Below the pieces are notes generated by a model. It searched no databases. It was not told the origin of the DNA and saw only the letters and a list, made by a program, of their open reading frames with translations. A program made the position numbers and the translations under genes. Below, piece by piece: positions 6,485 through 32,538 of a stretch of DNA of 32,538 nt (the stretch's first letter is position 1; each line of letters opens with the position of its first letter). This stretch comes from Candidatus Roizmanbacteria bacterium GW2011_GWC2_34_23 (GTDB lineage: Bacteria; Patescibacteriota; Microgenomatia; UBA1406; GWC2-37-13). Location of the stretch: the NCBI GenBank assembly GCA_000990305.1, contig LBPR01000014.1:1-32538 (forward strand). The letters run 5' to 3'.

Positions 6485-6610
6485 GTATTAAATTTTAAAT
6501 ATTAAAGGTTAAAGAAATATTAAACATTTAAATATTAAACGTTTTCATGTTTAACTGTTTAATCTTTAACAGTTTATTTAACATTTAACTGTTTAAGATT
6601 TAATATTTTG
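6485..6610. repeat. Imperfect inverted word-repeat array
   Basis: Left half rich in AAATATTAAAC words, right half in GTTTAACTGTTTAA words, roughly complementary. Confidence 0.6.
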
Positions 6611-9011: not shown

Positions 9012-9185
9012 TTAGCTTCGCTTTGCTCGGTAATGAACTACCTTATTTTTGAAAAAAACTATTTTACCTTTTAATTTCTTTCCTTGAACTATTCGTGTGA
9101 TTTCTCCCGGAACATTAAAATCTTTCATTGAACGAAGAGCAACAATAAAAGATAGAGATAGAATCAGTATAAAAGTAAATAACAT
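9012..9185 (-). CDS. Small membrane protein, hypothetical
   Basis: MLFTFILILSLSFIVALRSMKDFNVPGEITRIVQGKKLKGKIVFFKNKVVHYRAKRS; the upstream 17 codons of the tracked ORF are translated intergenic repeat. Confidence 0.45.
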   Translation of the reverse strand: MLFTFILILSLSFIVALRSMKDFNVPGEITRIVQGKKLKGKIVFFKNKVVHYRAKRS

Positions 9186-9310
9186 ATTATATTTTGAATA
9201 ACAAATATCAAACATCAAATAACAATTGAATAACAAATAATAAATATTTAAAACGTTTTGTTATTTGATATTTAAAATTCAATTGATATTTGTTATTAGT
9301 TATTTATTAT
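9186..9310. repeat. Intergenic word-like inverted repeat array
   Basis: AATAACAAATATCAAACATCAAATAAC on the left, complementary GTTATTTGATATTT...ATTGATATTTGTTATT on the right. Confidence 0.75.
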
Positions 9311-10219
9311 TTAGTTAACCGCCCATTCCTTCTCTAAATCCCCTAACTCTAAAATTATATCAGATACGGTTGTCTCCCCTATCTTCAATTTACATTTAAA
9401 AAAATCTGCTAAACGTTGATAAGTTTTTGTTGTGCTTATTTTTTTGTCAGTTATTAATAAACAATCGGTAATAATTTTTTCCTGATTTAACAAATCTACA
9501 ACACGAATTCCCTCTCCTTCAATCATCTGACCAATCAATTGGGCGGTTTTATAACTTTTTGTATATACAATTTGAACATTGATATCATAATTTCTATAGG
9601 CTCTTTGAAAGAAACTACCTTGAAATTTTTTGTAAAAAGAATTATAGTCAAACATACTATTGCTACCCTCTGATTCAAAAGGCTCTAAATCAATTATCTG
9701 AAAGCTCTCTTTGCCATTGGTTGAAAAAATATAGAGAAGAAAAAGCTTATCAATTAGGTTGGCGTTAGAATTCGTTAAAAGAATTTCCATAACGGTAGGT
9801 GTTTGTTTTAAAATTGAGTTATCATAATAAATAGTGGTTTTTTTTTGATAAAAATACAGGTCTACTAAAGTCGAAGTTGTTGCCGAAAAAGTTTTTCTTA
9901 TAATGTCCGGTTTTTTTTCTAAACTAGCCAATTTGCCAACTGCCCCGACTTTATATTTACCGTAACCGCCCGGAACAATTACTTTAACTAAGTTAGAAAA
10001 GGATAATAGATAGTTGACGTTTTTTTGGTCTAACGAATAAAATCGTGTTTTTTCTCCATAAAAAACCACATTAATCTTATCTCTTCCTTTCAAAAACACT
10101 GAGGAAGTAATGGATTTAAACAAATAATAGGTTAGACCCAAAGTAACAAAAAGAATAAATAAATTCTTTTTATTGAAAATTGAAAATTGAAAATTGAAAA
10201 TTTTCTTATGATATTCCAT
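9311..10219 (-). CDS. Single-TM envelope protein, possible LytR C-terminal-like domain
   Basis: N-terminal TM helix, extracytoplasmic region and a C-terminal IVYTKSYKTAQLIGQMIEGEGIRVVDLLNQEK segment resembling LytR_C; 14 nt overlap with the upstream antiporter gene. Confidence 0.5.
   Translation of the reverse strand: MEYHKKIFNFQFSIFNKKNLFILFVTLGLTYYLFKSITSSVFLKGRDKINVVFYGEKTRFYSLDQKNVNYLLSFSNLVKVIVPGGYGKYKVGAVGKLASLEKKPDIIRKTFSATTSTLVDLYFYQKKTTIYYDNSILKQTPTVMEILLTNSNANLIDKLFLLYIFSTNGKESFQIIDLEPFESEGSNSMFDYNSFYKKFQGSFFQRAYRNYDINVQIVYTKSYKTAQLIGQMIEGEGIRVVDLLNQEKIITDCLLITDKKISTTKTYQRLADFFKCKLKIGETTVSDIILELGDLEKEWAVN
10172..10202. repeat. 7-bp tandem repeat (ATTGAAA)x4 in coding sequence
   Basis: attgaaaattgaaaattgaaaattgaaaatt, encoding FNFQFSIFN near the N-terminus of the 9311-10219 protein. 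Confidence 0.95.
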
Positions 10220-29689: not shown

Positions 29690-32538
29690 TTACAAATACT
29701 CATCCCAACTCTTAATTTTTAAGTCACTGATTTTATACTTATCTAACGAATTGACAAAAAAACGGGCGGAATTCAAATCAGTAAACAAGGGAATATTATT
29801 ATCAATGGCCGCTCTTCTGATTAAATATCCATCGGTGATCACTCTTTTAAACGAACCTTCATTATTATAATCTTCACTCAAATTAATGACCAGTGAGACT
29901 TGATGTTTTTCAATAAGATCGATGACGGTCGGGCTGGTTTTTTCAAAAAGTTTGTAAACTATTTTTGTCCGGACTCCTTTGGTTTTAAGAAACAGATGGG
30001 TTTTTTTAGTTGCGTAAAGCTTGAATCCAAGATTTTTTAATCGCCAGATTGATTCGGCAAAACGAAGTTTAAAATCGTCGCCCCCGATCGTCACTAAGGC
30101 GGTTTTATTTTTTAAGGACAAACCTGTTGATAATAAAGATTTTAAATAGGCTTCTTCGGCTGTTTCGCCAAAACAAGCTACTTCCCCGGTCGAACCCATC
30201 TCGACTCCGAGTACCGGATCAGCCCCTTCCATTCTGGCAAAAGAAAACTGGGGTGCTTTGACGGCCACATAGTTTGGATATTTGATTTTATATTCGCGAC
30301 TTTTTCCAAAAAAACTATCAACAATGACTTCGGCAAAATTAACCCCGGTCACTTTGGAAATAAAAGGAAAAGTTCTTGAAGCTCGCAAATTCATCTCAAT
30401 TACATAAACTTCGTTGTCCTTGACCATAAATTGAATGTTAAAAGGTCCGGAAATATTTAGTGATTTTGACAGTTGCTTGGCAATCTCAATCATTCTTTCC
30501 CCACTAAAAAATCGGACTCGCTCGGCCGGATAGACGATCGTTGCATCGCCCGAATGAACACCGGCATGTTCTATATGATTGGAAATGGCAAAAACTTTGA
30601 CCTTGCCGGATTCGGCCACTCCATCAAACTCAATTTCCCGGGCATTAACCATATATTTGGAAATCGTCACCGGATGTTTTTTATTAATATTGGTGGCCTT
30701 TTCAATAAAATGTTTTAACTCGATTGGATTGTAGCAAAGGTTCATCGCCGCTCCGGACAGGACGTAGGACGGTCTAACCAAAATCGGATAACCAACCTCA
30801 CGGGCAAATTTTAAAGCCACTTCCATATCAGCAAAACTATTCCAAATAGGCTGCTTTATTTCCAAATCATCTAAAAGCTGGGAAAATTTTTTTCTATCTT
30901 CGGCCCGATCAATATCAACGGCTGATGTTCCTAATATTTTTATTCCGTATTTATCAACTTTATTAGCAATATTATTTGGAGTTTGCCCTCCGACGGAAAC
31001 AACAACTGATGAAGATTGTTCAAACTCATAGATATCAGCTACTCGCTCAAAACTCAGCTCTTCAAAATATAACCTATCAGAAATATCGTAGTCAGTTGAG
31101 ACGGTTTCCGGATTGCAGTTTATAATAATTGATTTTTTTCCAAATTTTTTAAGCTTCAAAGCAGTATTTACGCAAGTCCAATCGAACTCGACTGAAGAAC
31201 CAATTCGGTACGGCCCAGAGCCTAAAACCATCACACCTTTCTCCCCAATCGGAGTAACGTCATGATGACTACCGTTATAGGTTGTGTACAAATAATTTGT
31301 CTTGGCCGGAAATTCCCCAGCCAAGGTGTCGATTTGAAAAACCGAAGGAATGATTTTGTGCTTTTTTCTGATTTCCCTAACCTCTAATTCTCTAATCCCC
31401 AATCCCTCTCCAATCTTCTTATCCGAAAATCCTAATTGTTTCAGGCGTAATAATTGATGTTGGGGCATTGCGCGCAATGCCCGTACAGCCGTTAATTCAC
31501 GTTCCGCCTCAACGATTGCCTTTAATCGATGTAAAAACCATGGGTCGATCCCGCTTAATTCATAAATTTTTTGAACAGTTATTCCTAATTTTAAGGCTTT
31601 GGTAATAAAAAAGATTCTTTTGGAATTGGCTTGTTTGATTTTGGCTAAAATTTCGTCTATGGTCAGATCAAAATTATTATCAGTCACTCCTTGAGCCCCA
31701 ATATCAAGCATCCTGACGCCCTTTTGGATTGCTTCTTCAAAGGTCCGACCGATCGCCATAATCTCACCAACAGACTTCATAGAACTGCCGATCTTTTCTG
31801 TAGTCCCCTTAAATTTATCCATATCCCAGCGGGGAATTTTGACAACGATATAGTCGAGAGCCGGTTCAAAAAACGATTGGGTAATCTGAGTTACCTGATT
31901 TTTAGCTGCTACATAGGCTAAAGGATAACCTGTTGCCTTAGAAGCCAGAGCCGATGAACGTGATAAGCGGGCGTTGACTTCGATTACGTAATACTCTAAC
32001 GGAGATGCTAACGACGGGGCCTGTCTCGTCTCCTTTCCCGCCAGGGTTCGGCTCTCAATAGGTCGCCTCCACGCTGTCAGGATCCCTGGAGCCTCGACAC
32101 CCGCCGTTTCCGTCGACGGATTCGGGCTTAAAGCAAACTGGACGTTACACTCGCCAATAATCCCCAAACTCCTAACTATTTTTATCGAAAGTTCCCGCAG
32201 GAAGTGGTATTCAAAATTAGTTAACGTTTGACTCGGGGCAACAACGATTGATTCGCCGGTGTGAATGCCCAGTGGATCAAAGTTTTCCATATTACAGACT
32301 GTGACGCAGTTATCATATTGATCACGGACAACCTCATATTCTATTTCTTTATAATGGTGTAAGTATTTCTCAACTAGTATTTGTGGCGAAAAAGCCAGAG
32401 CTTTTTGAGCTAAGAAACTAAATTCTTTTTCATTGTGAACAACTCCTGATTTCTGCCCACCTAAAGAGAAACCGGCCCGAACCATGATTGGATAGCCAAT
32501 TCCTTGAGCTTTTTTTATGCCTGTTTCAACCGTAGTTA
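29690..32538 (-). CDS. carB: Carbamoyl-phosphate synthase large subunit, partial (5' end outside window)
   Basis: Two ATP-grasp modules (IEVNARLSRSSALASKATGYP; IEMNLRASRTFPFISKVTGVNF), oligomerisation domain (IDPWFLHRLKAIVE) and MGS-like domain. The frame stays open upstream of 32485 to the window edge. Confidence 0.96.
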   Translation of the reverse strand, partial: TTVETGIKKAQGIGYPIMVRAGFSLGGQKSGVVHNEKEFSFLAQKALAFSPQILVEKYLHHYKEIEYEVVRDQYDNCVTVCNMENFDPLGIHTGESIVVAPSQTLTNFEYHFLRELSIKIVRSLGIIGECNVQFALSPNPSTETAGVEAPGILTAWRRPIESRTLAGKETRQAPSLASPLEYYVIEVNARLSRSSALASKATGYPLAYVAAKNQVTQITQSFFEPALDYIVVKIPRWDMDKFKGTTEKIGSSMKSVGEIMAIGRTFEEAIQKGVRMLDIGAQGVTDNNFDLTIDEILAKIKQANSKRIFFITKALKLGITVQKIYELSGIDPWFLHRLKAIVEAERELTAVRALRAMPQHQLLRLKQLGFSDKKIGEGLGIRELEVREIRKKHKIIPSVFQIDTLAGEFPAKTNYLYTTYNGSHHDVTPIGEKGVMVLGSGPYRIGSSVEFDWTCVNTALKLKKFGKKSIIINCNPETVSTDYDISDRLYFEELSFERVADIYEFEQSSSVVVSVGGQTPNNIANKVDKYGIKILGTSAVDIDRAEDRKKFSQLLDDLEIKQPIWNSFADMEVALKFAREVGYPILVRPSYVLSGAAMNLCYNPIELKHFIEKATNINKKHPVTISKYMVNAREIEFDGVAESGKVKVFAISNHIEHAGVHSGDATIVYPAERVRFFSGERMIEIAKQLSKSLNISGPFNIQFMVKDNEVYVIEMNLRASRTFPFISKVTGVNFAEVIVDSFFGKSREYKIKYPNYVAVKAPQFSFARMEGADPVLGVEMGSTGEVACFGETAEEAYLKSLLSTGLSLKNKTALVTIGGDDFKLRFAESIWRLKNLGFKLYATKKTHLFLKTKGVRTKIVYKLFEKTSPTVIDLIEKHQVSLVINLSEDYNNEGSFKRVITDGYLIRRAAIDNNIPLFTDLNSARFFVNSLDKYKISDLKIKSWDEYL
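31463..31482. repeat. Perfect 20-bp palindrome in carB
   Basis: GGGCATTGCGCGCAATGCCC, encoding RALRAMP. Confidence 0.97.
31997..32122. repeat. GC-rich in-frame insertion in carB, probable repeat element
   Basis: Encodes about 40 extra residues (PSTETAGVEAPGILTAWRRPIESRTLAGKETRQAPSLASPL) between conserved NVQFALSPN and EYYVIEVN; visibly higher GC than flanks; contains TCCGTCGACGGA palindrome (32109-32120). Confidence 0.75.

Follow-up and report, generated by a model that had tools for sequence, protein, structure and literature searches.

A palindromic repeat in frame in carB, very likely one copy of a mobile family dispersed in Microgenomates

The first beta-hairpin turn of the carbamoyl-phosphate synthase large subunit (CarB) usually has 10–13 residues, and in the genome of Candidatus Roizmanbacteria bacterium GW2011_GWC2_34_23 it has 49, the carB frame passing without a stop codon through a block of GC-rich DNA. 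Where did this segment come from, and how is it kept inside a conserved enzyme? Our analysis makes it very likely that this segment belongs to a family of mobile repeats, being a copy of an imperfectly palindromic, non-autonomous unit of ~90–100 nt that spreads in Microgenomates and is kept in genes when it lies in frame in an enzyme loop. What had been noticed as a single oddity is thereby extended to a genus-wide and class-wide system.

The insert in the first CarB hairpin turn

The carB gene lies on the minus strand at positions 29690–32536 of the window, by which we mean the whole stretch of 32,538 nucleotides that was analysed, and 948 of its codons fall within it. Its 5′ end is truncated by the contig end, and its first codons are apparently found on a separate contig of the same genome (G000:C6, where G000 is the genome of the window). 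The encoded protein contains the Pfam domains CPSase_L_D1, D2, D3 and MGS and matches CarB/CPS1 structures in the PDB. In 60-nt windows, GC content is 63–65% across positions 32010–32129 vs 22–55% on either side. A covariance model (R1) identified a full-length copy of a palindromic element of ~95 nt, in frame in carB, at 32012–32106 on the minus strand (E = 1.3e-23), although this value is not independent, as the window copy is one of the 18 copies in the model. The copy encodes a peptide close to AGVEAPGILTAWRRPIESRTLAGKETRQAPS, and the predicted translation of the CarB insert includes AGVEAPGILTAWR.

The initial annotation, made from sequence alone, had described an in-frame GC-rich insert of 126 nt at 31997–32122, containing the palindrome TCCGTCGACGGA and a CCAGGG...CCCTGG pair, that expands the turn by about 40 residues. 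The in-frame insert, the expansion and both sequence motifs held; the extent held only in part, the repeat itself covering ~32012–32106 and the remainder being junction sequence. The inverted pair is present at 32041–32046 and 32084–32089. The small palindrome TCCGTCGACGGA (32109–32120) adjoins the element and is an extra of this copy, absent from the family consensus; the CarB loops of two other genomes that carry the element (G017 and G019) have CCGGAANCGACGGG at the corresponding junction. Flanking arms were assigned from the sequence and from a comparison of own-arm with cross-arm pairing: AACGAC at 32010–32015 pairs, with one wobble, with GCCGTT (AACGGC on the coding strand) at 32103–32108. 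Folded by itself, the window copy is no more stable than its own shuffles (z = −0.12), and its palindromic nature therefore rests on the family alignment rather than on this copy alone. Rfam searches of the whole window gave no match at the gathering threshold, including to self-splicing intron families, and no phage match was found.

Comparison with other CarB proteins places the insert precisely. Between strands NVQF and VIEVN, the turn has exactly 10 residues in 71 of 80 CarB homologues sampled from many phyla, and 10–15 residues in most insert-free relatives. Near relatives with 95% identity in the part of CarB that follows the insert have a turn of 13 residues, giving the clean gap that the initial annotation had anticipated (L009–L011), and species with the short DPKS-type turn carry no insert at all. 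The matching hairpin in the second half of CarB has eight residues in all cases read, the window CarB included. No protein-level conservation of the insert, which would have refuted a mobile origin, was seen in distant homologues: human CPS1, the closest PDB match, aligns straight across the site with nothing there.

An AlphaFold2 model of the window CarB, built from 28 sequences (mean pLDDT 79), leaves residues 143–176 (32009–32110, minus strand) without confident structure (pLDDT <50) between intact predicted strands at residues 127–135 and 181–187. Such a low-confidence segment fits a flexible excursion from the hairpin, as predicted by the model. The hairpin strands of E. coli CarB carry metal ligands; the turn itself is not known to have a catalytic role. 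The proposal that the insert is tolerated through its placement in a beta-hairpin loop is probably right, although this is an inference.

A dispersed family, in frame in unrelated genes

A DNA search with the window copy found the element in 11 of 20 congeneric genomes, the window genome and 10 further species, and the covariance model gave 49 matches in 12 of the 20, with a maximum of 14 in one genome. Beyond the genus, the model matched 40 of 72 genomes (19 of 34 genera) at the family level and 51 of 374 sampled genomes, from several families, at the class level. The hosts of the element are Candidatus Roizmanbacteria and other Microgenomates (Patescibacteria). The proposal of the initial annotation that the insert is a mobile element analogous to the Rickettsia palindromic elements (RPEs) is supported by the copies that relatives carry in other genes, in both orientations. 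The second nucleotide copy that this proposal called for is present in related genomes but not in the window genome, where DNA search and covariance model alike detected a single copy; mobility is therefore inferred from relatives, and recent movement in this genome is not shown.

Full-length copies measure 85–120 nt, mostly 95–102 nt, and 18 of them align over ~95 nt with the consensus CGGGTGTCGAGG...CCCGACGGCGCGCAG...GCGAGCACCGGCGGGAA...CGAGACAGGCCCCG. The consensus ends in CGGGTG/CCCCG, and the quasi-inverted ends of the element read CGGGTGTC / GACAGGCCCCG (also given as CGGGTGTCGAG / CGAGACAGGCCCCG). In the consensus fold the ends pair, CGGG-TGTC with GACA-GGCCCCG, around an inner stem TCCCG-CGG-GC; the RNAalifold consensus stem has 20 pairs, 7 of which show double changes. 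Degraded copies with internal deletions, in miaA of G004, in the tkt linker of G005 and in a GT2 gene of G009, show decay of the element.

Of the 49 matches in the genus, 28 or more lie in the reading frame of a gene recognisable by Pfam or by orthologues: tkt (6), miaA (5), carB (3), acs (3), fmt (2), miaB (2), GT2 (2), and one each in GT1, clp, tsaD, tatD and a genus-conserved protein without a Pfam match. Hosts in other genera include queuine tRNA-ribosyltransferase (TGT), asparagine synthase, LepA, FemAB, clp and tkt, and further copies occupy intergenic sites. Different species share insertion loops, the same loop often being used in several, and both orientations occur within one loop in acs, miaA, tkt and carB (forward in the window genome and G017, reverse in G019 for carB). 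These data show a dispersed family whose copies occur in either orientation, keep the frame of many unrelated conserved genes and recur in the same loops. Some shared sites could have been inherited, and reversed orientation could have come from inversion between the arms.

The in-gene copies are also restricted in codon phase. The consensus has two open frames per strand, and verified in-gene copies use only one of them: it gives (T/A)GVE... for one orientation, and GPVS... or DSVS... for the opposite one. Translation of the unused open frames yields Arg-rich peptides, which makes selection on the peptide the likely, if inferred, cause of the single phase.

In G057 (L179), the element occurs twice in a single TGT gene; the copies are nearly identical and lie in different loops ~340 nt apart, a pair that may reflect recent movement.

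Flanking arms, nested hairpins and recurrent loops

Directly outside the core, the flanks of most copies are mutually complementary, forming host-specific arms of ~6–12 bp whose sequence is particular to each copy. Across 20 copies, the pairing score is 7.15 within a copy vs 3.77 between copies, a value that none of 20,000 permutations reached. In G070 the element cores hardly differ, and the copies are therefore presumably young: 14 of the 19 have perfect arms of at least 8 bp (8–12 bp; e.g., GAATTGTTGAC/GTCAACAATTC and GAAATTCTGAC/GTCAGAATTTC), against a background of perfect palindromes with arms ≥8 at 6 of ~31,950 window positions. These 14 copies are not all independent, as some share both arm and outer repeat; when nine G070 sites that differ in their flanks were chosen, perfect arms averaged 8.4 bp, vs 2.3 bp between sites.

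Some G070 copies are nested in a larger palindromic repeat, other copies of which hold different cores. The element and this outer repeat have a central hairpin module in common, giving hairpins within hairpins. At L298, L304, L307, L309 and L311, the outer AT-rich palindromic repeat reads GCGAAGATACCAATTTTTTGCGACT ... GGTATCGAGC around interchangeable cores, the element being one of them. A search of G070 for the outer host repeat in uninterrupted form gave none, although the repeat is present there with other cores. Neither a target-site duplication nor an exact empty site was recognised, the orthologous loops being too divergent and mostly occupied by other inserts.

Because most copies have host-specific complementary arms, a particular mode of movement suggests itself: the element would enter the tip of a palindrome, or would copy its own flank into an inverted repeat on entry. 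The arms are compatible with either reading, and we regard both as possible. Entry into existing palindromes has been described for some REP elements (PMC3733652) and for YPAL elements, whose target sites lie across or beside dyad symmetry (PMC2229807). We also considered, and dropped, an argument from reading frame in favour of exact entry into palindromes, since a frame-keeping symmetric excision point always exists.

The loops that hold the element also hold other sequences. In many species, the orthologous host genes carry unrelated inserts in these loops, many of them palindromic. The CarB loop contains AT-rich sequence in G002 and G015 and other inserts in G006 and G012, and the CarB inserts of G002 and G006 each recur as partial copies at other sites of the genome that carries them. 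Since unrelated inserts occupy the same loops and are in part dispersed repeats, these loops act as sinks that gain, lose and exchange repeats.

The CarB loop of G048 (L007) contains in frame what by eye looks like a head-to-head CGTC-type REP pair (CGTCATTCCCGCGCAGGCGGGAATC ... TTCCGGATCACGCTTCGCGTGTCCGGAATGACA), and fmt of G016 (L116) has an in-frame pair resembling it. The CarB loop of G017 (L005) is a composite, in which a TCCTTCGCTAAAGCTACGGAGGGC module (SFAKATEG) comes first and behind it a shortened element with arms AAGCGAC/GTCGCTT. A second palindromic family (GGNACGACCWCCGTGTCGTYCC) is in frame in a glycosidase-like gene and a GT2 gene, both of G015 (L107 and L128), and short, nearly perfect palindromes (GGGTCTGACCCT...AGGGTCNGACCC) are in frame in one and the same glycosidase-like loop of G016 (L083) and G002 (L090). 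In the window genome, the acs loop that the element occupies elsewhere is filled differently, by a repeat-rich insert SDEIRQSQIQSDKTSEKNSDSIQLNPIPSDFI (L129, G000:C3:25000-31000). The window also has intergenic AT-rich inverted repeats at 9175–9319 and 6497–6608 (AATAACAAATATCAAACATCAAATAAC and similar) that by eye resemble the AT-rich loop inserts of relatives.

Competing explanations, known systems and significance

The reading we prefer, and hold to be very likely, is that of a mobile repeat retained within genes when it lands in frame in an enzyme loop. The carB copy would survive because a hairpin turn tolerates extra residues, and because the peptide that each strand encodes in its used frame, with its abundance of Gly, Pro, Ser, Thr and Ala, would be harmless; the neutrality of the insert in CarB is likewise inferred. 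Movement may depend on an activity supplied in trans or on replication errors at hairpins, neither of which has been shown. A bolder reading, which we put forward only as a possibility, is that the repeats grow at hairpin tips by copying, without a dedicated transposase: host flank would be copied into the opposite arm on entry, or the tip module would be swapped. If true, this would yield perfect host-specific arms of ~8–12 bp and nested hairpins with exchangeable cores, and it would be a steady source of new loop peptides in conserved enzymes.

The best-surviving alternative is that the element is a miniature inverted-repeat transposable element (MITE) moved by a conventional trans-acting transposase (RAYT/Y1 or DDE), with inverted ends and target-site duplication. 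Its size, quasi-inverted ends and dispersal are in favour, as are the Y1_Tnp genes that 15 of the 20 congeneric genomes possess, six of them in the window genome. Against it, the element is absent near the 30 Y1_Tnp loci examined in the genus, no longer element sharing its ends was observed, and possession does not follow the transposase (G002 and G015 have several Y1 genes and no copy, and G004 has copies and no Y1 hit). In place of a recognisable target duplication, the flanks are inverted repeats. A MITE of this kind remains possible.

A functional acquisition, in which a regulatory or interaction peptide was added to CarB and kept by selection, is very unlikely. The frame is maintained open, and verified genes use one of the two open codon phases per orientation, as such a peptide would lead one to expect; however, the insert is missing from near relatives whose flanking part is 95% identical, other species have unrelated inserts in the same CarB loop, the same peptide is present in unrelated enzymes, and the segment is predicted without confident structure.

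An ordinary, lineage-specific expansion of the CarB loop by polymerase slippage or indel drift can be all but set aside. Hairpin turns do tolerate indels, and several relatives have unrelated, partly AT-rich expansions in the same loop, but the same nucleotide family occurs in many other genes and at intergenic sites in both orientations, and at least two of the unrelated CarB inserts (G002 and G006) are dispersed repeats themselves; it is the copies in non-homologous genes that rule this explanation out. An assembly artefact or chimeric contig is very unlikely, as judged without read data: although the genome is a draft of 29 contigs with 80% completeness, the frame is intact on both sides of the insert, the insert family is native to the genus, and the same family lies in the same CarB loop of two other species.

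Among known systems, the RPEs come closest. They are palindromic, 105–146 bp long and in frame in conserved genes, and an RPE-bearing guanylate kinase is translated and active (PMC2229807); in R. conorii, nearly half of the RPEs, from three of ten families, lie in ORFs (PMC10969869), and the sites of RPE-4, -6 and -7 are suspected hotspots (PMC3767692). Like the RPEs and the Wolbachia palindromic elements (WPEs; both ~100–150 bp), the element is a dispersed palindrome found in frame in conserved genes and at intergenic sites (PMC2229807, PMC10969869, PMC3767692), and it shares with them a conserved encoded peptide, solvent-exposed insertion sites and possible hotspots. Three features of the RPEs (dispersed repeat, long palindromic stem-loop with inverted ends, in-frame insertion with a conserved encoded frame) are present, although at mostly 95–102 nt the element falls slightly under the RPE size range. 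It differs in its hosts, which are Microgenomates of the Patescibacteria rather than Rickettsia or Wolbachia, in occurring in both orientations in the same loop, and in having host-specific complementary arms at most copies. By analogy, then, the element acts like an RPE, and we do not file it as one, since its hosts lie outside Rickettsia and Wolbachia and the likeness rests on behaviour alone.

Three other groups were compared. CGTC-tagged REPs, which include RPE-4, RPE-6 and the Neisseria dRS3, are known as palindromic and intragenic units, have no dedicated transposase, and in some families lie inside larger palindromes (PMC3733652). They consist of a 4-nt unpaired tag, a stem of 8–9 bp and a loop of 4–5 nt, whereas the element is a single bulged hairpin of ~95 nt whose TGTC pairs with GACA; with neither the unpaired CGTC/TGTC tag nor the short stem, identity with this class was rejected. 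In the GTAG REP systems, a Y1 transposase (RAYT, or TnpA-REP) is believed to mobilise the short palindromic repeats, and Y1_Tnp genes exist in this genus; this identity was also rejected, as the consensus has no GTAG end and the 30 Y1_Tnp loci examined lack the element. ERIC, YPAL and other bacterial MITEs are stem-loops of 100–200 bp with occasional in-frame fusions; they are mainly intergenic (PMC2229807), whereas more than half of the genus copies of the element lie in recognised genes.

In the sources consulted, high-frequency in-frame palindromic inserts are reported for Rickettsia and Wolbachia, which are intracellular alphaproteobacteria. The literature that we searched, mostly without subscription papers, held nothing on point for such repeats in Patescibacteria or Microgenomates, which is weak evidence of novelty. 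The features that appear to be new are the fixed codon phase per orientation, the host-specific arms, the nested hairpins and the loops that collect unrelated repeat families.

RPE-type repeats within genes thus have a counterpart in an unrelated phylum, the habit having arisen or persisted in Microgenomates, ultra-small bacteria with streamlined genomes. With a site-specific inverted flank marking most copies like a footprint, the question of how such repeats move becomes testable, as does that of how new protein segments are seeded into essential enzymes. For the proteins of this group, the finding also counsels caution, in that loop insertions and segments of low similarity can be the debris of repeats rather than domains.
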